NCBI RefSeq assembly: GCF_016765675.1
Contig: NZ_JAESWB010000365.1
Location: 1-64,000 of the forward strand
Direction: 5' to 3'
Source: Neobacillus paridis
GTDB lineage: Bacteria > Bacillota > Bacilli > Bacillales > Cytobacillaceae
DNA length: 64,000 nucleotides
Part shown: positions 2,359-25,627 of the stretch, one piece after another
Position numbering within the stretch: position 1 is the first letter of the stretch
Layout: each line of letters begins with the position of its first letter
Position numbers and translations under genes: made by a program
Notes under the pieces: generated by a model
Told to the model about the DNA's origin: nothing
What the model saw: only the letters and a program-made list of their open reading frames with translations
The model's database searches: none

Positions 2359-2539
2359 TCCATCACCGTCCCCGCAGCATTTAATATTCTCTTTTTTTAA
2401 GGTGATTAAATTTTACCATATTTTTTGATATAATTCTGAATATTTTGCTATTTTTTATAATTTTTTTACATTTTTTGTACTATCCTGACAAAACAATATT
2501 ATGCTCACGCTTTACCTTAGCTTGATTTTATAAAATAAA

Positions 2540-2565
2540 AGGCTGAAACTTTGTAGAATCAGCCT
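2540..2565 (-). terminator. Probable terminator of the chemoreceptor gene
   Basis: A 7-base stem (AGGCTGA at 2540-2546, TCAGCCT at 2559-2565) with a 12-base loop. On the minus strand it is followed by a T-rich run (CCTTTTTATTTTAT). It lies about 125 bases beyond the chemoreceptor stop codon. Confidence 0.5.
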
Positions 2566-2691: not shown

Positions 2692-4743
2692 TTATATTTT
2701 AAACATACTGGTCGATTCCTGTAACTCTTGGGCCATTTTTTTAAGTGTTTCAGCTGATACAGCAATTTCGCCCATTGCCAAATTTTGCTCTTTCGCTGAC
2801 ATCGCGACATTTTGTATTCTTTCTGATGCTTGTTCAGCTATGTTCGCTACGTTTTCAATATCTTTTACCATTTCCTCGGAACTGTTATTAACCCCCATTA
2901 AATGATCTGAAACTTCTTTTGACATTTTCGCAACTTCGCCTATCATTTGGGCAATTTCATTAAATGTTTTACCACTTTGATTGACAAATTCCAGTCCATC
3001 TTGGACCATTTGTTTATTATTATTCATTGCCGTAACGGTTTTCTCGACTTCGCTTTCAATATCTTCAATAATTACAGAAATATTTTTTGCCGCTTCCTGT
3101 GATTGTTGCGCTAAAGTTTTTACTTCATTTGCTACCACCGCAAAACCTCTGCCGTTTTCTCCGGCTCTCGCCGCTTCAATAGAGGCATTTAATGCCAGCA
3201 AATTCGTTTGTTCGGAAATAGCGGTAATCAAATCAACAATCTGATTAATTTGTTTGGATTTTTCACCTAATTCATCCACCCGACTGGCTGTTTCTTCAGT
3301 CGTTTGATGAACCAAATCAATTTGGGAAATCGCCTTCCTAACCACTGCGCTACCGTTATTAGCTTTATCGTTCGTTTCTGATATCAAGTTTGAAATGGAA
3401 GTATTAGAACCTAATGCTTGTTCCATTCTAGTTGTAATTTCTTCAGCTACCTCTGTTGAATGGGTGGTTCTTTCCACCTGTGTTTTGGATCCAATAGCGA
3501 CTTCCTGAATTGCATTATTAATCTGAACGTTTGCTGTGCTCGTTTCTTCAGCGATAGCCGATAATTCTTCAGAGGTTGCTGCCACTTGGTCTGATTGACT
3601 TTTCACTTGTTGAATGATGTGTAAAAAGTTATCTTTCATTTGATTTAAATAGCCGGCCATTTTTCCAAACTCATCTTGGCTCTTGATATCTAACTGATGT
3701 TGGAAATCGCCATTAGCCAATGTTAAAGCCATGTCATTGACTTTATTAATATTTTTCACAATGGATTGATTATAAAAAAGAATCACTAAAACAATTAATG
3801 CAATTCCTACCAAACTGACAATGATTAAAATGTTTGAAAGTGAACTTAATGATGCATACAATTCATCATCTGGAACCACTAGACCAATTGTCCAATTTGT
3901 GTTTGGTATTTTTTTAAAAAATAAAGAAGTGTCCACATTACTGCTATTTGTGAAGCGAAGGGATCCGTTTTTCTTTTCGATAATTTGACTGCCTAACTTC
4001 GCCAAATTGGCATCATTATCTTCTGTAATCTTCGCTTTCATCACTTTTTCGGAGTCAGGTGCAGCAATATATGTTCCATTATTATCTATTAAAAATGCAT
4101 AACCTGTTTTTTCAACTTGAATATCCTCAATCGTTTTTTGGATTTGACTTAAGTCAATATCAGCTGTGACCACACCAAGAAATTGTTTTTGCTGATCATA
4201 AAATGGAGCAGTAGCCGTTACCATAGAGACGTTTACGTTCGTATCGAGATACGGACTTGTTAGCACAACAGGTTTATCAGTATTGGTTGCAATTTGATAC
4301 CAATCTTGAGATGTGTAATCAAATTTTACATCACTGTATTTTTGTGTTGTTTTTATTGCATTTTGATCCCAGTAAGCATAGGTTGAAAAATATCTTAAAT
4401 CCTTTTTATATTTATAAGGTTCAAAAAAGATTCCTCCTCCAAACGCATTTTTATTTGAAGAAAAAACATTTGTAAGGATTTTTTGGTAATTTGATAGAGA
4501 GTAGCTCTTTGGTGATACTTCAATCATCCTGGTAAGTTGCTCAGGTATACTACTTGTTTCCAGCAAATAGTTTTCTACGGATTGTGTCACACCATCTAAT
4601 CTATTTTTCATTCGATAATTTATCTGTTCTTCCAGTAGACCTTTAGCATTAATATAGGTGACCGATATGATAGACCCAAAAATCACCAGTAATAAAGGAA
4701 GTATAATTGCCAATGTACGCATTTTAATACTTTTGAATTTCAT
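2692..4743 (-). CDS. Methyl-accepting chemotaxis protein, dCache-type sensor
   Basis: A 683-residue chemoreceptor. It has an N-terminal membrane segment (about 9-31), a long extracytoplasmic domain (about 35-300) with Cache features such as WYQIA, SPYLD and VVTADIDL, a second membrane segment (about 305-326), a HAMP domain and a methyl-accepting signalling domain. The signalling tip is typical ([19 protein letters not shown]). Role: binds an external ligand and controls CheA in the flagellar chemotaxis complex. Its gene is preceded by a EutV-type antitermination leader (5005-5075), so it is predicted to be expressed with the ethanolamine genes. A ligand tied to ethanolamine or a related amine is an inference from that leader and position, not from binding-site residues. 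Confidence 0.92.
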
Positions 4744-5004
4744 TTAGATTCTTACCTTCTTTCTGTATATTCACTCCGTGATATGTATCGATTTGTTTCC
4801 CATCTTTATGTCCTCTTCTAAATGAACGGCATTATATCTACGTTCCATCCCTCTCTTCTCCATCATTTGAGTTTCATATTTTCTCTTCCTCAATACCCAT
4901 AATTTTTTCAGTTTTATTTACCCAATTACTTATATTCGCATCTCCAGAAAATTAAAATACGTGTGTATTACTTTCAAAACAATCCTTTCCTATCCACCTT
5001 TTCC

Positions 5005-5075
5005 AAAAAAAAGAAGCTTTAAAGAGAAAAAAATCTCTATAAAGCTCCTTTGCTTTTATTGCACGCCGTTGTGCC
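5005..5075 (-). promoter_or_regulatory. EutV/ANTAR dual-hairpin antitermination leader before the chemoreceptor gene
   Basis: On the minus strand, hairpin P1 (5061-5074) has a GCAC/GTGC stem and loop AACGGC. P2 (5041-5056) has an AAAGC/GCTTT stem and loop AAAGGA. Both loops carry A1 and G4, the ANTAR recognition pattern. P2 overlaps the 5' arm of a terminator (5034-5046 paired with 5013-5027), which is followed by eight T residues (5005-5012). This is the architecture established for EutV targets: phospho-EutV binding to P1-P2 prevents terminator folding. The downstream gene is the chemoreceptor starting at 4743. The leader and its promoter lie in a 489-base gap; the remainder of the gap shows no gene. 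Confidence 0.85.
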
Positions 5076-5081
5076 AATTTA

Positions 5082-5090
5082 ATTATATCA
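5082..5090 (-). promoter_or_regulatory. Extended -10 promoter element for the chemoreceptor leader
   Basis: The minus strand reads TGATATAAT, an extended -10 (TGN plus perfect TATAAT), seven bases before the P1 hairpin. No good -35 hexamer lies 16-18 bases upstream, as is common for extended -10 promoters. It suggests the chemoreceptor has its own start rather than only read-through from eutH. Confidence 0.55.
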
Positions 5091-5232: not shown

Positions 5233-6357
5233 TTAGTTAGCTTTAGCAAGTGGAGATTGTCCACCTTTATCTCCTGTCTTTCCAAACATTCTGTTAGCGA
5301 TAAAAATCGCAACAAAGATTACCGTAATTCCTCCAACTAGTTTACCAACAATCATTGGGAAGATCATATCTTTTGCTACACCAGCTGCAAAGCCTAAGTG
5401 GTCACCAAATACAAAGGCTGCAGATACAGAAAAAGCAACATTGATAATTTTACCGCGGTCATCCATATCTTTTAACATCGAAAACATCGGAATATTATTA
5501 GCTAAAGTTGCAATCATACCAGCTGCAGCTATCTCATTCATACCGAGAAGCTTCCCTAATTTCAACAGTGGCTTTTTGAATACTATCGTAATTACATCAA
5601 CCATAACGTAAGCTCCTGCTAGAACTATCGCAATACTGCCGACGATGGAAACCCCTTCTTCCACTTTTGCTGTTCCCGGAATAACTGTTAGCCCAGTTAA
5701 TGTCTGAATAATCCCAACCGCAAGACCAATTGTTGCAACAACCACAACACCATGTCCAAAAATGGTAAACCCTTTGATCATTTTTTCAGGTATTAACCAA
5801 AGACCTACCACAATTAAAGCGGAAACTAAAATGATTGGAACAAGGTTTTTCAAAATCATAATAATTGAAAACCCAGCTGTTAGCCCTCCTGCTAAACACC
5901 CAAGAGGAATGGTAATCATTCCTGCCAAAATCCCGGTCGCTAAAAACTTATGATCTTTCTTTTCAATAATTCCTAATGCAACAGGAATCGAGAACACAAT
6001 GGTCGGTCCCATCATTGATCCTAAGATAACCCCTGAAAACATTGCAGCATCCGGTGTTTTAGCCATCTCCTGAGCCAACTGGAAGCCACCCATATCAATC
6101 GCCAAAAGACTTGTTGCAAACATCGATGGGTCAGCACCAAGGGCACTATAAATAGGGACAATTATTGGACTTAATACCTTTGCCAATACAGGTGCAATTA
6201 CGATAATCCCAACCATGGCCAATGTTAAAGAGCCCATTGCCATAATCCCTTCATCAAACTTATCGCCTAAACCGATTTTATTTTTGAAGCACTTATCTAA
6301 AGCCCCTATCACCATAAAAATAACCATTAAATACAAAATAATATCATTGATTCCCAT
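5233..6357 (-). CDS. eutH: Ethanolamine permease EutH
   Basis: A 374-residue polytopic membrane protein with about 11 hydrophobic segments, matching the EutH family in length and sequence (for example DMGGFQLAQEMA and GSMMGPTIVFSIP). Role: ethanolamine uptake across the cytoplasmic membrane. It is the last gene of the long eut operon. It follows a decayed shell gene whose old stop codon overlaps the eutH start by 14 bases. No strong terminator is visible between eutH and the chemoreceptor leader. Confidence 0.93.
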   Translation of the reverse strand: MGINDIILYLMVIFMVIGALDKCFKNKIGLGDKFDEGIMAMGSLTLAMVGIIVIAPVLAKVLSPIIVPIYSALGADPSMFATSLLAIDMGGFQLAQEMAKTPDAAMFSGVILGSMMGPTIVFSIPVALGIIEKKDHKFLATGILAGMITIPLGCLAGGLTAGFSIIMILKNLVPIILVSALIVVGLWLIPEKMIKGFTIFGHGVVVVATIGLAVGIIQTLTGLTVIPGTAKVEEGVSIVGSIAIVLAGAYVMVDVITIVFKKPLLKLGKLLGMNEIAAAGMIATLANNIPMFSMLKDMDDRGKIINVAFSVSAAFVFGDHLGFAAGVAKDMIFPMIVGKLVGGITVIFVAIFIANRMFGKTGDKGGQSPLAKAN

Positions 6358-15904: not shown

Positions 15905-15996
15905 AAAAAGGCTTAAGGATATAATAATTTCTTACACAGAAACTACTTATAACCTTAAGCCTCTTTGCTTCCGGATTTTGACGCTGCATTGCGTCA
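15905..15996 (-). promoter_or_regulatory. EutV/ANTAR dual-hairpin antitermination leader between eutW and eutA
   Basis: P1 (15979-15996) has a 6-bp stem TGACGC/GCGTCA and loop AATGCA. P2 (15957-15970) has stem AAGC/GCTT and loop AAAGAG. Both loops keep A1 and G4. The terminator pairs AGGCTTAAGG (15953-15962) with CCTTAAGCCT (15909-15918) and ends in TTTTT. It starts 18 bases after the eutW stop, so transcripts that read through the regulators are checked before entering the structural genes. Its P2 and terminator closely resemble those of the orphan leader at 21244-21340. Confidence 0.9.
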
Positions 15997-16014: not shown

Positions 16015-17418
16015 TTATTCATTTTGTAATTCGAACTGGAAGGAAATATCAGTCCCCTTCTCCAGCCTATTGAATTGAAGAGTTCCCTTTAATTTGTCCT
16101 TTACATAACTCTGGACAATGGAAAAGCCCAAGCTATTTTTTACCTCATTTGAAAAGTCAAAGCCAGCCCCATCATCGATAACAGAAATGTTAATTTTACT
16201 ATTCTCTTTGTGCACCTTAACCTGTATTGTACCTTCATTATTTTCCCCAAAAGCATGATCGTAGCAATTTTGTACTAACTCATTAATGATCAAAGCAATA
16301 ACTGTGGCGTGATCACTGTTAATCATAAAATCTTCATTAGATACATAATGCAGGCTAATTTTATTGTTATCAGAATAGCTTTGATGTAAGTTATTTAGGA
16401 CAAACTGGATTACCTGATTTAAATTAATTGCATCGCTTAATTGTTTTGATAATAATTCATGGGTTGCCGCTATCGACAAAATTCGATTCATACTGTCTTT
16501 TAGTAATCGTTTTGCCTCAGCGTTATTACTTCTTCTTGACTGCATTCGTAACAACGAGGCAATCGTTTGCAGATTATTTTTTATCCGGTGATGAATTTCC
16601 CTTATCGCTACCGCTTTTAAGGTCAATTCTGCGTCTTTATCTTTTATCTGGGTGATATCTCGTAACACCACCGCAATTTTTTCCTCACTATTCGGCACAA
16701 CCACTTTTTTCATTAAGAAGTAGTAGTCCCCAATCTTCACCTCATGATTAAAGTTAAGTCCTTCGTCTACTAATAATTGCTCGAATGTGATCTCATTGAT
16801 AGTCAAATCGTCATAATGCTTTCCTTCAATTTCATCCATAAAACCCAAGCTTTTATAAAGAATTTCAGCCTTCACATTTTTGAATTGAAGAAAACCGTCT
16901 TTATCAAAAATTAAGATGGCATCGTCTAAATAATCGTTTAGGCTCTTGATTGACAGTAGAGTAGACGGCAGCAATTCTTGACGCTGATCATTAAGCTTGA
17001 AATTTTTTTCAATATCATCACTAATATCTTTTTCCATTATTAATGTGCCAATAACCTTCTGCTCATTACAGATTGGATAAATATCTTGTGTCACATAGCG
17101 GTTTTCTTGTGTTTGCGCCTTTATATTACTTGTATGCTCACCAGTTGACATTACGTGCCACACACCTGGTTCATTTTCTCGTTTTGCCATTTCACCGACT
17201 GGAGTATCCCAGTACATGGACTTTCCCTTTGGTTTACAATGGTAAACAACAATTGATTCATCCTTCCTTGTTGTTGGTACATCAATGAAGATATCACATT
17301 CTAAAAAATCAACCATGATGTCTACGACATCAGCCATTTTCAAAATTTTTTCTATGTCATCGTTTGTTAAGTTGGTATACTGTTGACAAAGTTCTAGGAT
17401 CCGTTTCTTATCACTCAT
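16015..17418 (-). CDS. eutW: EutW ethanolamine sensor histidine kinase
   Basis: A 467-residue soluble kinase without membrane segments. It has an N-terminal sensory domain (about 1-130), a PAS-like region (about 160-265), an HWE/HisKA_2 dimerisation box with the phosphorylated histidine in IREIHHRIKNNLQTIASLLR (about 285) and an ATPase domain (IINELVQNCYDHAF; DDGAGFDF). In Enterococcus the EutW homologue senses ethanolamine and phosphorylates EutV. The start overlaps eutV by 8 bases. The leader before eutA follows immediately. Confidence 0.94.
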   Translation of the reverse strand: MSDKKRILELCQQYTNLTNDDIEKILKMADVVDIMVDFLECDIFIDVPTTRKDESIVVYHCKPKGKSMYWDTPVGEMAKRENEPGVWHVMSTGEHTSNIKAQTQENRYVTQDIYPICNEQKVIGTLIMEKDISDDIEKNFKLNDQRQELLPSTLLSIKSLNDYLDDAILIFDKDGFLQFKNVKAEILYKSLGFMDEIEGKHYDDLTINEITFEQLLVDEGLNFNHEVKIGDYYFLMKKVVVPNSEEKIAVVLRDITQIKDKDAELTLKAVAIREIHHRIKNNLQTIASLLRMQSRRSNNAEAKRLLKDSMNRILSIAATHELLSKQLSDAINLNQVIQFVLNNLHQSYSDNNKISLHYVSNEDFMINSDHATVIALIINELVQNCYDHAFGENNEGTIQVKVHKENSKINISVIDDGAGFDFSNEVKNSLGFSIVQSYVKDKLKGTLQFNRLEKGTDISFQFELQNE

Positions 17419-17983
17419 ACATGATCATGATTGTTCTGGCAATCTCCCCCATGGAACAGCGCCGATCCATGCTCAATTTTCTTATAAATTTATAGGCCTC
17501 ATCTTCCGTTAATTGGCGTTCCCTCATAAGTAACCCTTTTGCAATGTCTATTGCCTTTCTATCCTCTAGCTTTTGTGATACCTTTCTCACTTCAATTTCT
17601 AGCCTGTTCAATTCTTTTCCTTTTGCAATAGCCGTTTCAATTGTTGGAATAAATGATTTTTCATCCAGCGGTTTAACTAAATAACCTAACGCTCCTACTT
17701 CCCTCGCTTGTTGAATATAGTCAGTATCATTAAAAGCACTAAGCAATAAAATTCCACCTGCAAGTTTTTCACGCATAATAATTTTACTTGCTTTTAATCC
17801 ATCCAAAATGGGCATTTTAATGTCCATGATAACTAAATCGGGAGAATACATTCTGCATACATCTATTGCTTCAAAGCCATCGGAAGCTTCTCCCACAACA
17901 TCGTAGCCAGCTTCGCATAATAATTCGCGTATATCGATTTTTGTAATCGGTTCATCATCGACAATTACAATTCGCTTTTTCAT
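17411..17983 (-). CDS. eutV: EutV response regulator with ANTAR RNA-binding domain
   Basis: 190 residues. The receiver domain (1-120) has the acidic pair in VDDEP, the phospho-acceptor in VIMDIKMP and the lysine in LVKPLDE. An ANTAR domain follows at about 130-188 (AIDIAKGLLMRERQLTEDEA, then AYKFIRKLSMD). ANTAR proteins bind dual hexaloop hairpins in nascent RNA and block terminators. The five matching leaders in this window are its evident targets. The leader before eutS lies upstream of eutV itself, giving positive feedback. Confidence 0.96.
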   Translation of the reverse strand: MKKRIVIVDDEPITKIDIRELLCEAGYDVVGEASDGFEAIDVCRMYSPDLVIMDIKMPILDGLKASKIIMREKLAGGILLLSAFNDTDYIQQAREVGALGYLVKPLDEKSFIPTIETAIAKGKELNRLEIEVRKVSQKLEDRKAIDIAKGLLMRERQLTEDEAYKFIRKLSMDRRCSMGEIARTIMIMYE

Positions 17984-18874: not shown

Positions 18875-18951
18875 AAAAAGGAGCTTTGAAAAAAAATAAC
18901 TTTTTTCAAAAGCCCCATTGCTCTCTTAATGAAAGTTGCACTTCCTTGTGC
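18875..18951 (-). promoter_or_regulatory. EutV/ANTAR dual-hairpin antitermination leader before eutS
   Basis: P1 (18938-18951) has stem GCAC/GTGC and loop AAGGAA. P2 (about 18909-18924) has an AGAGC/GCTTT stem with one G-U pair and loop AATGGG. Both loops carry A1 and G4. The terminator pairs 18901-18916 with 18880-18896 and ends in TTTTT (18875-18879). Promoter elements lie directly upstream (18959-19013). Confidence 0.88.
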
Positions 18952-18958
18952 TATTTAT

Positions 18959-20315: not shown

Positions 20316-20786
20316 TCATTGGTTTGCCCAGTCAGCTGGATATGTGATATATAAAAAACGTGCATGATTCTTTACTGAAAATTGGATCTTGCTATCTCTA
20401 GGAATAAATATTATTTCTCCCTCTCCGGCACTGATTGTCTTTCCATTCACCAAGATATCAAGCTGGCCTTCAATGACATAATCTATTTCGTCATATTTCA
20501 ATGTCCAATCAAATGTAGTATCAGCCATTTCCATGACCCCACATCCTAATCTAGGACTCTCTTTCAAAGTAAAAATATCCTTTGTGTAGACAATATCCTC
20601 TTTGCTTCCAGTATCCAAACGATCTTCTTCTGTCACTTTGATTGTTGGAATACTAACTGATATCACACCGCTCGAGTCAACGGTTTTATTTATTGCCTGG
20701 ATTCCTCCTATGTCTAATTGTTCAGCGATAACTTTTTTTATCAAATCTTCCAATAATGATTTATTTAATGTCTCCACAATGTTCAT
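20316..20786 (-). CDS. eutQ: EutQ cupin protein (acetate kinase-type)
   Basis: A 156-residue EutQ with an amphipathic N-terminal helix (LLEDLIKKVIAEQLDIG), likely an encapsulation signal, a flexible linker and a C-terminal cupin barrel (DEIDYVIEGQLDILVNGK; GEGEIIFIPRDSKIQFS). EutQ of Salmonella has acetate kinase activity and would complete acetyl-phosphate to acetate with ATP gain after PduL. It starts nine bases after the remnant eutC reading frame, so it belonged to a second eut transcription unit controlled by the tandem leaders at 21.24-21.47 kb. Confidence 0.9.
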   Translation of the reverse strand: MNIVETLNKSLLEDLIKKVIAEQLDIGGIQAINKTVDSSGVISVSIPTIKVTEEDRLDTGSKEDIVYTKDIFTLKESPRLGCGVMEMADTTFDWTLKYDEIDYVIEGQLDILVNGKTISAGEGEIIFIPRDSKIQFSVKNHARFLYITYPADWANQ

Positions 20787-20794
20787 CTCCTAAT

Positions 20795-21072
20795 TTATTG
20801 AAATTTATGATACTTATTTAAATTGATGCCGGAAGCCTTTTGTTCAAGTATGGTTTGAATTAGACCGGCAAGATATGCACCTGCTTCAACAGGAGCTAAA
20901 CCTCCTTCGTGAATTTTTGAAATAACTATTCTTTCAGACTCTCATGGTTAAACATAACTTCTATTACGTTTTTTGAAAGATTATCCATTTGGCTGTTTTC
21001 GTTAGTTGCCTTTGTTTCATCACCATTGATGAGTTCTTCAAGTATTTGGTTAATAACTGTTTCAAGATCCAT
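20795..21072 (-). pseudogene. eutC: Gutted second copy of eutC
   Basis: An ATG at 21072 behind GGAGGAGGGAG opens a 48-residue frame beginning MDLETVINQILEELINGDET, resembling the EutC N-terminal targeting helix and linker. It then meets a stop. In another frame the EutC C-terminus follows: [20 protein letters not shown] and QKASGINLN, clearly parallel to the intact gene's end ([22 protein letters not shown]). About 200 central residues are missing. It is not a functional lyase subunit, although the short targeting peptide could still be made. It is evidence of a former second eutC. Confidence 0.88.
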
Positions 21073-21243
21073 TTCTCAATCTCCCTCCTCCAAAAATATA
21101 GGAAAAATTTTATACTTCTCTATTAGTCTCCCATGCAGCGCAAAATCAGCGCTGCACCACAAAGAATGAAAATAGTTATACTTTCATGATGGCTAAAACT
21201 ACTGGGCTCAAGCCTATGCAAATTCTTTTTGGCTTATAAAAGC

Positions 21244-21340
21244 AAAAAGGCTTAAGATTATAAATATCCCTAAAGGTAGGAATATTACTTATAACCCTAA
21301 GCCTCTTTGCTTTTAAATCTATGCTTCAACATTGAAGCAT
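21244..21340 (-). promoter_or_regulatory. EutV/ANTAR leader (eutA-type) before the eutC remnant
   Basis: P1 (21321-21340) has a 7-bp stem ATGCTTC/GAAGCAT and loop AATGTT. P2 (21299-21312) has stem AAGC/GCTT and loop AAAGAG. Both loops have A1 and G4. The terminator is a long imperfect hairpin beginning AGGCTTAGGG and closing CTTAAGCCT, followed by TTTTT (21244-21248). P2 loop and terminator are nearly the same as in the leader before eutA, indicating that the two were copies. Confidence 0.88.
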
Positions 21341-21353
21341 ATATAACTATTTT

Positions 21354-21401
21354 TTATTCATCTGTAATCGATAAACTCAACAGCTTTATCTTTTTAAAGA
21401 A
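21354..21401 (-). pseudogene. Possible last codons of a deleted eutW copy
   Basis: Between the two tandem leaders only about 60 bases remain. A frame there ends in a TAA (21354-21356) after codons reading LSLSITDE, 13 bases before P1. The intact eutW ends FELQNE 18 bases before its own P1. The parallel placement suggests this is the tail of a lost eutW, but the match is too short to prove it. Confidence 0.25.
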
Positions 21402-21403
21402 AC

Positions 21404-21469
21404 AAAAAGGGACCTTTGAAATTTCAAAAGCCCCATTGCCTTCAATATTAAAGCTGCACGCCTTTGTGC
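21404..21469 (-). promoter_or_regulatory. EutV/ANTAR leader (eutS-type), upstream member of the tandem pair
   Basis: P1 (21456-21469) has stem GCAC/GTGC and loop AAAGGC. P2 (21428-21441) has loop AATGGG on a 4-bp stem with one G-U pair. Both loops have A1 and G4. The terminator pairs GGGGCTTTTGAAA with TTTCAAAGGTCCC and ends in TTTTT. Loop P2 and the terminator resemble the leader before eutS. No gene now lies between this leader and the next one 60 bases on. Confidence 0.88.
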
Positions 21470-21476
21470 TGTTTAT

Positions 21477-21533
21477 AGTATAAAATAAAAAAGCGAACTA
21501 CGAGCGTTTACTTTCTTAACAATTTGTGAACTA
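21477..21533 (-). promoter_or_regulatory. Promoter block before the tandem eut leaders
   Basis: TATACT (21477-21482) and the upstream block (AGTTCACAAATTGTT, AAAGTAAACGCTC) are the same as in the promoter before eutS, with identical spacing between the blocks. Nineteen bases between them are not conserved, so selection or recent duplication acts on the two boxes. The 157 bases between here and the divergent LysR gene show no further feature. Confidence 0.55.
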
Positions 21534-21702
21534 ATTCATTTTTTCTCAATAGTTTCTTTATCAGTATTGTTGGAATTCTTGGATCCGTCAGTGAATTTTC
21601 CTGTAAAATTCATAACCCATTCTACTAATTCATTATATTATAAGAATATAGTTACATGACTAACATCAAAAATCACGAGCCGTCAGAAGGGTGGGTTCCG
21701 AA

Positions 21703-22572
21703 TTGAATCTCGAAAATATTGAGGCTTTTGTCTATGCTGTTCATTTAGGAAGCTTTGTTAAAACGGCCGAGGCTCTCTATTTAACACAGCCTTCCGTTAC
21801 CGCACGGATTCACTCCCTGGAAAGTGAACTTAATGTGGAATTGTTTCAGCGGACTGGGAAACATATTTCCCTAAGTGAACAGGGGAAAATTTTTTTGCCA
21901 TATGCACAAACGATTCTCCAATCTTATCAGGAAGCAAAGGTGAAACTGCATCATCCTATCACCACACCCAATCAATTAAAAATTGGCTGTGCCAGTTCTA
22001 TTTCGAATTATATTATCCCAGAGCTCATTCCTACCTTTCAACAGGAATATCCTAATGTCAACATCAAGATTATTACTGGGCATTCCAACGATATTTTGGA
22101 CAAAGTGCTGAATAAGAAGGTCGATTTCGGTATCGTTCGCACGGTTAAACACTCGCAAATTAAATCACTGTTATTTCGCCACGATCCGATTGGCTTGTTT
22201 GCCCCGGCGGGACATCCCCTTCTACAAAGTGAGCAGGTCACGATTGAGGAAGTAAGTGAACAACCATTGATCTTTTTTGATTATGGGTCGGTAGATTGGT
22301 TGATGATCTATCGTTTATTTGATTCTAAAAATCTTAAACCTAATATCATTCTTGAAGTAGATAGTATGGAAACAGCCAAAAACCTGGTCATGAATGGTGT
22401 GGGGGTCAGCTTCTTACCACAGCATTGTGTGGTAAAAGAGCTTGCGGACGGTCGACTGTTTCGTGTCCCACTCATTTCCCCAGGTCAACTTGATGTAAAA
22501 ATTGAGATTATTTATCGAAAGGGTGAGCGGAAATCACCTTTTATTGACTTTTTTATTCTCAACAGTGTATGA
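21703..22572 (+). CDS. LysR-family transcriptional regulator
   Basis: A LysR regulator of about 289 residues. The start is taken as TTG at 21703 (LNLENIEAFVYAVHLG), nine bases after AAGGGTGGG and matching the family N-terminus. The GTG at 21691 overlaps that site. Helix-turn-helix: AEALYLTQPSVTARIHSLES. The effector-binding domain follows from about residue 90. It is transcribed with the racemase gene 150 bases downstream and away from the eut remnants. Likely controls the racemase or a nearby promoter; the effector is unknown. Confidence 0.88.
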   Translation: MNLENIEAFVYAVHLGSFVKTAEALYLTQPSVTARIHSLESELNVELFQRTGKHISLSEQGKIFLPYAQTILQSYQEAKVKLHHPITTPNQLKIGCASSISNYIIPELIPTFQQEYPNVNIKIITGHSNDILDKVLNKKVDFGIVRTVKHSQIKSLLFRHDPIGLFAPAGHPLLQSEQVTIEEVSEQPLIFFDYGSVDWLMIYRLFDSKNLKPNIILEVDSMETAKNLVMNGVGVSFLPQHCVVKELADGRLFRVPLISPGQLDVKIEIIYRKGERKSPFIDFFILNSV

Positions 22573-24049: not shown

Positions 24050-25345
24050 TTATATGACATAGACAAAATAACCGATAAATATCGCACATAAAACATACAT
24101 AATCGGATGGACTTCCAATGTTTTCTTAGTAGCTAACATCGTGATTGGATATAAAATAAATCCTAAGGCGATTCCAGTTGCGATACTATAGGTTAAAGGC
24201 ATCGTAATAATCGTGACAAAGCATGGAATCACAATAGCAAAGTTACTCCAATTGATTTTGCTGATCTCGGTTGCCATCATCGCACCAACGATGATTAAGG
24301 CTGGTGCCGTTACCTCCGGTGTGACAACCGCAAGTACAGGTGCAAAAAACAATGATATGGTAAAGCATGCGGCGATGATAATGGATGTAAAGCCTGTCCT
24401 GCCGCCCACAGCAATCCCCGCCGTTGACTCCACAAATGACGCCGTTGTTGAAGTTCCCAATACAGAGCCAACAATACCGGACAACGAGTCGGCCAAAAGG
24501 GCTTTCCCGGCATTTGGAATCTGATTATCCTTCATTAAACCGGCCTGGCTGGCAATCGCGATCAAAGCGCCGGTTGTATCAAAAAAGGCAACAAATAAAA
24601 AGGTGAAAATAACAGCTAGCATTTTTATCGAAAAAATCTCATCCAAATGGCCGAATAGCACCCCAAAGGTAGGCTCTAAACTAGGAATGCTCCCAATAAT
24701 TTTATCCGGAGGAGTAATAATTCCAAATATCATCCCGAGAATGGTTGTGAGCACCATTCCATAAAAAATGCCCCCTTTTATCCCTTTATTTAATAGAAAA
24801 ATCATAATGATAAAGCCAACAATTGCGAGTACGGTCGGGGCTGATTTGAGGTTGCCAATTGCAACAAAAGTAGCTTCATTTGCCGTAATAATACCGGCAT
24901 TTTTCAAACCCATAAAAGCCACGAAGAAACCAATCCCAGCGGCAATAGCATGTTTTAAATCTGCGGGAATAGCGTTAATAATTTTTTCGCGGATTTTTAA
25001 TATACTTAAGATCATGAATAACAATCCAGCGACAAATACCCCGGCCAACGCTGTTTCCCACGGTATTTTCATGCCAATACAGACACTAAACGTAAAAAAG
25101 GCATTAATTCCCATGCTAGGCGCAATTCCGATTGGAAAATTAGCCATTACACCAATTAACAAGGATCCGATAATCGCCGATAAGGCAGTTGCCGTAAATA
25201 ACGCTCCCTTGTCCATGCCGGTTTGACTCAAGATCACCGGATTGACAACTAGAATATAAGCCATTGATAGAAATGTCGTAATTCCTGCGGCACTTTCCTG
25301 TTTAAAAGAAGTACCCCGCTCGGAAAATTGAAAGTAGTTTCTCAT
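24050..25345 (-). CDS. Guanine/hypoxanthine permease, PbuG type (NCS2/AzgA)
   Basis: A 431-residue permease with about 12 membrane segments and AzgA/PbuG family signatures (ITTFLSMAYILVVNP; NFPIGIAPSMGINAFFTF; DTTGALIAIASQAGL; STTASFVESTAGIAVGGRTG). It imports guanine and hypoxanthine by proton symport. The guanine riboswitch upstream (25446-25514) supports the purine substrate directly. Start ATG at 25345 after GGAGGACAATC. Confidence 0.93.
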   Translation of the reverse strand: MRNYFQFSERGTSFKQESAAGITTFLSMAYILVVNPVILSQTGMDKGALFTATALSAIIGSLLIGVMANFPIGIAPSMGINAFFTFSVCIGMKIPWETALAGVFVAGLLFMILSILKIREKIINAIPADLKHAIAAGIGFFVAFMGLKNAGIITANEATFVAIGNLKSAPTVLAIVGFIIMIFLLNKGIKGGIFYGMVLTTILGMIFGIITPPDKIIGSIPSLEPTFGVLFGHLDEIFSIKMLAVIFTFLFVAFFDTTGALIAIASQAGLMKDNQIPNAGKALLADSLSGIVGSVLGTSTTASFVESTAGIAVGGRTGFTSIIIAACFTISLFFAPVLAVVTPEVTAPALIIVGAMMATEISKINWSNFAIVIPCFVTIITMPLTYSIATGIALGFILYPITMLATKKTLEVHPIMYVLCAIFIGYFVYVI

Positions 25346-25396: not shown

Positions 25397-25445
25397 TGTT
25401 CTGCAAAGGACAAATTGTATACTTTGATAAATCAAACGCATTGCC

Positions 25446-25514
25446 CCTTGTAGACAGGCTATTTACGGCAGCCTGGTAGAGACATTCGAGCCATATTCTC
25501 GAACTTATACAAGG
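25446..25514 (-). ncRNA. Guanine-class purine riboswitch aptamer
   Basis: Minus strand: the P1 arms CCTTGTA and TACAAGG close a three-way junction containing the conserved AATATGG, GTCTCTACC and CCGTAAA segments. The discriminator base before the 3' P1 arm is C (GTCTACAAGG), which selects guanine rather than adenine. Guanine binding is predicted to favour the downstream terminator and shut off the permease. Confidence 0.92.
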
Positions 25515-25627
25515 TGAATCTATATTAGAATAATAAATGAATATTATCAGTGATAAGGTTCATCGTCAATAACAATCGTCATTTTCAGCCAATTAAGTTA
25601 ACTTGAACAAGGAACATTTTTGATTTG

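Follow-up and report, generated by a model that had tools for sequence, protein, structure and literature searches.

The closest described systems are the leaders controlled by the two-component pair EutV/EutW in Enterococcus faecalis. These precede eutP, eutG, eutS, and eutA, as well as ef0120, a gene outside the eut locus for which EutVW-dependent control has been shown (PMC3369931). In E. faecalis, ethanolamine stimulates EutW, and the phosphorylated EutV dimer blocks the terminator at dual hexaloops (PMC8934654). The present analysis concerns the window, a 64,000-nt stretch of Neobacillus paridis DNA (contig NZ_JAESWB010000365.1, positions 1 to 64,000), in whose eut locus a short dual-hexaloop leader lies on the minus strand between eutH and a gene for a chemoreceptor with a double-Cache (dCache) sensor. 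The leader shares with its E. faecalis counterparts (i) two hairpins with A1/G4 hexaloops, P1 and P2, (ii) the overlap of P2 with a terminator, (iii) a promoter of its own, and (iv) EutV and EutW encoded in the same locus. It differs in that the target is a chemoreceptor gene and P1 stands at the predicted 5′ end. We consider it quite likely that EutW/EutV antitermination at this leader, which has its own promoter, activates an ethanolamine-type chemoreceptor alongside the eut genes.

A second precedent is found in the Fig. S3 legend of Ramesh et al. 2012 (PMC3369931), which mentions that a methyl-accepting chemotaxis gene has a putative ANTAR element across its ribosome site. Both elements are ANTAR-type dual hairpins ahead of a chemoreceptor gene; the earlier one overlaps the ribosome site and start codon and is proposed to act on translation, whereas the one described here overlaps a terminator. 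The initial annotation knew of no described case. This holds for antitermination, since no such leader before a chemoreceptor gene appears among the matches listed from the open-licence literature, taken without the supplementary tables of Ramesh 2012, but it requires amendment for the putative translational element. In the same literature, exact phrases for an ethanolamine chemoreceptor are unmatched, and a search of PMC4207490 and PMC8217296 finds no chemotaxis terms. Ethanolamine is a reported attractant of Pseudomonas aeruginosa, for which TlpQ and PA4915 have been assayed for ethanolamine by thermal shift (PMC10653921). The switch type is already known, and the chemoreceptor as its target looks new; the EutV targets named so far in these sources are eut genes and ef0120. 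A chemoreceptor under a EutV antiterminator would mean that an RNA-level two-component switch coordinates catabolism with behavior, and would put forward a definite candidate for the role of ethanolamine chemoreceptor among Gram-positive bacteria.

The initial annotation had claimed both ANTAR hexaloops (AACGGC and AAAGGA, each with A1 and G4), the overlap of P2 with a terminator ending in eight T residues, and an extended -10 element ahead of the leader. The hexaloops are present in the minus-strand sequence, the overlap is borne out by sequence, fold, and the energies of the two exclusive states, and TGATATAAT (5090-5082) matches the extended -10 perfectly. With its 5′ arm, the terminator hairpin starts within the P2 loop. 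The predicted fold of a 106-nt stretch consists of P1 and the terminator, with an energy of -27.8 kcal/mol and a shuffle z of -3.28 that is equalled by 1 of 200 shuffles. Two mutually exclusive states are predicted in silico for the trimmed leader, one with the terminator (-26.4) and one with P1 and P2 (-9.1). From the position of the extended -10, transcription would start near the first base of P1. A simple pattern scan lists neither the leader promoter nor the leader terminator, its terminator-like sites being on the opposite strand. About 260 nt separate the leader terminator from the receptor start codon. This untranslated stretch contains a 25-codon open frame (window 4771-4848, minus strand) with a purine-rich stretch ahead of it. 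The coordinates of the leader and the associated features are collected in Table 1.

Table 1. Features of the receptor leader and its eut locus, in window coordinates
Feature	Position	Strand	Basis or remark
Chemoreceptor, 683 aa: dCache_1, HAMP, and MCP (methyl-accepting chemotaxis protein) signalling domain	2692..4743	-	Pfam
Extended -10 promoter element TGATATAAT (TG-A-TATAAT)	5082..5090	-	Immediately 5′ of P1; read from sequence
P1 hairpin GCAC-AACGGC-GTGC, hexaloop AACGGC (A1, G4)	5061..5074	-	Sequence reading, fold
P2 hairpin AAAGC-AAAGGA-GCTTT, hexaloop AAAGGA (A1, G4), overlapping terminator	5041..5056	-	Sequence reading, detector, fold energies
Intrinsic terminator	5005..5051	-	Hairpin about 5051-5013, eight-T tail 5012-5005; fold z -3.28
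eutH, final eut gene, upstream of receptor leader	5233..6357	-	Pfam EutH, 500.9 bits
EutV, response regulator with ANTAR domain, predicted reader of leader	17411..17983	-	Pfam; alignment to E. faecalis EutV
EutW sensor histidine kinase	16015..17418	-	Pfam GAF_PdtaS, HisKA_2, HATPase_c
Dual-hexaloop leader before eutS	18904..18953	-	Detector, covariance model
Dual-hexaloop leader before eutA	15952..15996	-	Detector, covariance model
Dual-hexaloop leader, first of two upstream of eutQ	21422..21471	-	Detector, covariance model
Dual-hexaloop leader, second of two upstream of eutQ	21294..21339	-	Detector, covariance model
Terminator-like hairpin AGGCTGA...TCAGCCT, then T-rich	2531..2565	-	Between receptor and PAS-GGDEF-EAL genes; read by eye

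The locus encodes the proteins that such a switch would use. The window EutV aligns to E. faecalis EutV (6wsh, 6ww6) with an E value of 3.3e-66 across 186 residues, and the adjacent kinase is presumed to be EutW from gene order. When active EutV is absent, a polymerase starting near P1 would halt at the terminator after about 65-70 nt, and transcripts derived from eutH would end there too. EutW would sense ethanolamine and phosphorylate EutV, which would then bind the P1 and P2 hexaloops; the formation of P2 would sequester the 5′ arm of the terminator, allowing the polymerase to continue into the chemoreceptor gene. Cells with ethanolamine catabolism switched on would thereby gain a receptor for tracking ethanolamine gradients. 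The promoter start, EutV binding, ethanolamine dependence, the ligand, and the sign of the chemotactic response are elements that we infer, the observed basis being anatomy, statistics, conservation, genomic linkage, sensor homology, and pocket residues.

A detector set to report only pairs of A1/G4 hexaloops whose P2 overlaps a terminator gives five sites in the window, compared with a mean of 0.05 and a maximum of 1 across 40 dinucleotide shuffles. Each lies within the eut locus on the minus strand: eutQ has two upstream, and eutS, eutA, and the receptor gene are preceded by one each. The covariance model R1, built from these five leaders and three leaders of one relative, gives the receptor leader 52.3 bits as a training sequence. 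In the 4.63-Mb genome it yields only five matches at E<=0.1, all in this locus; because all five are training sequences, the informative point is the absence of further matches. Rfam returns no family describing the leader, either on the window or on the leader itself, and gives one chance match (E 0.81).

The receptor has the parts of a methyl-accepting chemotaxis protein, namely the MCP signalling domain, a HAMP domain, and an extracellular sensor, and the genome contains two CheA-type genes (PF02895). Its sensor is related to 3LIB/3LIC and to the ethanolamine-bound CqsR (9NIA), with 3LIB among the closest folds. The double-Cache domain is common to the receptor, CqsR, and the ethanolamine-binding Cache sensors R3 and R7. 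These known sensors belong to other protein classes: CqsR is a quorum-sensing receptor, R3 a Ser/Thr phosphatase, and R7 a histidine kinase, whereas the protein described here is a chemoreceptor in a eut locus with a predicted ligand. In the sequence alignment, the platform Asp, Thr, Tyr, and Asp and the aromatic lid positions of CqsR are conserved. The lid residues F106, Y122, Y136, and W148 correspond to W105, F123, W138, and W151 of CqsR, and the platform residues Y165, D167, T193, and D195 to Y169, D171, T196, and D198; each of the eight ethanolamine contacts is either identical or an aromatic replaced by another aromatic. At least three contact positions, including 106, 136, and 193, are missing from three other dCache_1 receptors of the genome. 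Ethanolamine or a closely related amino alcohol is the probable ligand of the double-Cache sensor, as judged by these pocket residues, a line of evidence added in the present analysis to an initial annotation that made no ligand prediction.

The EutV switch could work as proposed while the receptor senses another ligand, such as another amine, a breakdown product like acetaldehyde or ammonia, or an electron acceptor, giving taxis tuned to metabolism with no taxis to the substrate. This alternative is possible but doubtful. The contact pocket is largely kept in homologues without eut linkage, one of which (L017) adjoins a glycine-betaine-type ATP-binding cassette (ABC) transporter, so the pocket is no proof of an ethanolamine role. 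The 3LIB sensor, called R1 in PMC10104139, preferred dimethylamine and did not bind ethanolamine, and the dCache_1AM amine-motif pair R103-D133 (PctD numbering) seems absent from the receptor in the 3LIB alignment, where positions were mapped by spacing. Against another ligand stand the match in kind at all eight CqsR ethanolamine positions and the linkage of the receptor to ethanolamine catabolism in two gene arrangements.

The second of these arrangements is found in another genus. Among the 193 genomes of the family sample, eight have a sensor homologue at E<=1e-50, and three of these homologues are within eut loci: those of the window, G184, and G183. The receptor orthologues of G184 and G183, two genomes of one other genus, are 59.0% and 58.9% identical to the window receptor over the whole protein, and their genes stand upstream of eutG, eutS, eutP, eutV, and eutW rather than after eutH. 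Each is preceded by a leader with hairpins GCAC-AATGGC-GTGT and AAAGC-AAAGAA-GCTTT, an A1-to-A1 spacing of 19, an overlapping terminator, and a T tract. The initial annotation had named loss of the A1/G4 pattern in close relatives as grounds for rejection; both loops keep A1 and G4 in these two genomes. The window and sister-genus leaders are identical in 58 of 74 columns (78%), as against 54 of 125 upstream and 110 of 280 downstream (39-43%), and the best 70-column stretch in 20 shuffled pairs is 0.586 identical. The leader is the sole clearly conserved stretch upstream of the orthologous receptor, and the loops, the P1 stem, and P2 are retained between the genera despite diverged flanks.

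The leader is found at all three receptor genes inside eut loci and at none of eight homologues elsewhere (G163, G109, G177, G172, G168, Desulfosporosinus, G349, and G100), at which R1 matches are absent or have E>=0.58; for G168, G349, and G100, this refers to the roughly 3.9 kb read around the receptor gene. In G349 and G100, the eut locus is on a different contig from the receptor homologue, and the Desulfosporosinus protein is the one distant match of the named-genome sensor scan. A EutV switch on the chemoreceptor gene, as first proposed, is supported because the leader has the features of EutV targets, EutV and EutW are encoded in the locus, and the stretch is conserved in another genus; its reach is narrow, in that the leader-receptor pair occurs in three genomes of two genera.

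This conservation bears on a different account, in which the element serves chiefly to end transcription of the eut operon past eutH. The hexaloops would then be left over from a duplicated eut leader, and the receptor would be expressed on its own. Neither inspection by eye nor the pattern scan, which misses the leader's own terminator, finds another same-strand terminator between eutH and the leader, and the gap of about 260 nt before the start codon leaves room for a second promoter. This account is nonetheless unlikely: the leader stands before the receptor in G184 and G183 as well, at a site where the upstream genes that were read are non-eut, and its loops, P1 stem, and P2 are kept amid diverged flanks.

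Structural evidence for the EutV-type hairpins comes from 25 leaders (22 distinct) of eight sources, aligned to the model, a fitting that itself favors this structure. Across the 22 distinct leaders, 98.3% of the P1/P2 pair cells are standard pairs, compared with 25-46% when the partner is slid by 1-3 columns, and in three of the four P1 pairs both partners have changed. No shuffle equals either the 15 double-change cells or the covariation score. The loops of the 25 aligned leaders have G4 in 50 of 50 cases and A1 in 48 of 50; the two exceptions carry G, and one of them is the eutG leader of G349. The receptor leader has an A1-to-A1 spacing of 19 nt, compared with 24, 25, 28, and 28 nt in the other window leaders and 24 nt (A29, A53) in E. 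faecalis eutP (PMC3369931). Since this short class (19-20 nt) also precedes eutG in G184, G349, and G862, a eutG-type leader may have given rise to the receptor leader. In 9 of 11 leaders, a -10-like hexamer (at least four of six matches, with A2 and T6 required) has its end 7-11 nt ahead of P1; the shuffled mean is 3.2, and nine are reached in 0 of 1000 shuffles. In these nine leaders the -10 is positioned as if promoter and leader formed one movable module.

The sister genus adds a second RNA element. In G183 and G184, an adenosylcobalamin (AdoCbl) riboswitch (RF01482, 100.3 bits; L013:11706-11856 on the minus strand and L015:9547-9697 on the plus strand) lies about 130 nt upstream of the receptor leader and is followed by a hairpin that looks, by eye, like a terminator. 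The closest parallel is EutX/Rli55, in which an AdoCbl riboswitch is followed by a EutV site unassociated with a terminator (PMC5821096). The order of riboswitch and EutV-type dual hexaloop is the same; unlike the EutX/Rli55 site, the dual hexaloop of G183 and G184 has a terminator, and a chemoreceptor gene follows it. The interval from riboswitch to receptor leader in these genomes showed no complete EutV site of its own, G184 having one P1-like hexaloop (by eye) and a weak partial R1 match (L005:2807-2832, 12.1 bits, E 0.9) there, so the sister-genus receptor leader may double as a sponge. In G349, a dual hexaloop (27.2 bits, L059:535-581) comes after a riboswitch and before the eutG leader. 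The window differs from EutX/Rli55 in that no AdoCbl riboswitch was found in it, either at Rfam gathering scores or in a closer look at 20700-22200. Genome-wide, where RF01482 was the sole cobalamin family searched, there is no match above the cut-off and one below it on another contig.

These arrangements lead to a tentative proposal of a two-input RNA circuit. EutV antitermination would install the ethanolamine chemoreceptor only once ethanolamine is sensed, coupling microcompartment metabolism to navigation, and the sister-genus RNA could be both a B12-gated EutX sponge and the receptor mRNA leader. Such a circuit would create a positive loop of sensing, digesting, and swimming up the gradient, and the double role in the sister genus would mean that ethanolamine is chased only when the cofactor for its use is also present. 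That the leader RNA is instead an EutX-like decoy that titrates EutV, with incidental control of the receptor, is rather improbable. The riboswitch upstream of the G183 and G184 leaders is placed as in EutX/Rli55, and to that extent agrees with a decoy; however, the EutX site is free of a terminator (PMC5821096), whereas here P2 is locked in a stable terminator without EutV, and the window lacks the riboswitch. Chance hairpins, which short stems in an AT-rich intergenic region might suggest, are scarcely credible given the shuffle controls, the five-match genome search, and the cross-genus conservation.

Several observations weigh against an EutV-switched ethanolamine receptor, to which belongs the presence of the pocket outside eut loci noted above. 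No good -35 element was found ahead of the extended -10 of the leader. The linker of the receptor leader is 4 nt with a 5-bp P2 stem or 5 nt with a 4-bp stem, and its spacing is at the short end of the range; E. faecalis eut linkers measure 5-12 nt, and induction suffered when a linker was cut to 3 nt (PMC3369931). Among the 22 distinct leaders, no double change is seen in P2, and the number of double-change pairs (three) is equalled in 106 of 500 shuffles. The structure 9NIA is absent among the 50 fold matches listed. The receptor leader is conserved across only two independent lineages, with no difference between G183 and G184 over the 41 nt modelled. G109, the only other member of the window's genus with a homologue at E<=1e-50, has a 40% identical sensor and no leader. 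In G349, which has EutV leaders, the receptor is 47.7% identical and retains the full pocket but is leaderless, and the coupling of EutV to the receptor is therefore not general.

The wider distribution of the leaders was surveyed with R1, and all counts take in the window's genome. In the family sample, 23 of 193 genomes match at E<=0.1. Five of these (G000, G012, G100, G183, and G184) carry three to five leaders each, and the remaining 18 have one weak match each (E 0.0056-0.092), taken as chance uninspected. The order, class, and phylum samples, which overlap and were searched with stricter filters able to lose weak leaders, give 2 of 397 genomes at E<=0.001, 6 of 398 at E<=0.001, and 8 of 398 at E<=0.003, respectively. 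Of the class-level loci L077-L084, annotation covers L077, L078, L081, and L084, together with wider regions of G1058 and G1262, and leaves out G1026. Eut loci were read around in ten genomes (G000, G012, G100, G183, G184, G349, G798, G862, G1058, and G1262), and the receptor with its leader occurs in three. For the remaining seven, BLAST finds no receptor homologue in the sequence read, which in G349 ends with the contig 78 bases past eutH.

Some leaders of the survey precede other kinds of genes. In G012, a dual-hexaloop leader (L053:14632-14678, minus strand) stands before a gene with Complex1_51K and RnfC_N domains, followed by a bacterial microcompartment (BMC) shell gene, which suggests a redox partner in the EutV regulon. 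In distant phylum members, ANTAR-type leaders (L062:1501-1541 and L063:1501-1546, minus strand) are ahead of genes that, judged by the protein start, resemble asparagine synthase. These leaders would fit the nitrogen theme of Ramesh 2012.

The window locus carries genes that we label EutQ, EutG, EutS, EutP, EutV, EutW, EutA, EutB, EutC, EutL, EutM-type shells, EutE, EutT, EutD, EutN, and EutH. Pfam gives a fitting family for nine of ten window proteins submitted (the receptor, EutH, the GGDEF-EAL protein, EutV, EutW, EutQ, EutG, EutA, and EutT) and none for orf230; the remaining labels are presumed from gene order, and those in relatives were assigned by BLAST with the window set as reference. 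A plasmid search returned no match with DNA and two distant matches with protein. Downstream of the receptor, the PAS-GGDEF-EAL gene (175-2358) is unlikely to form one operon with it because of the terminator-like hairpin between them. Upstream of eutQ, two complete dual-hexaloop leaders stand in tandem about 130 nt apart (21294-21471, minus strand), and no AdoCbl riboswitch was found near them. Between these leaders and eutQ, short broken frames (20795-21073, minus strand) resemble, by eye, the end of EutC, and the stretch looks like a decayed eutC copy. Farther upstream, a purine riboswitch (87.1 bits; 25431-25532, minus strand) precedes a gene (24050-25345) whose product is presumably a purine-type permease.
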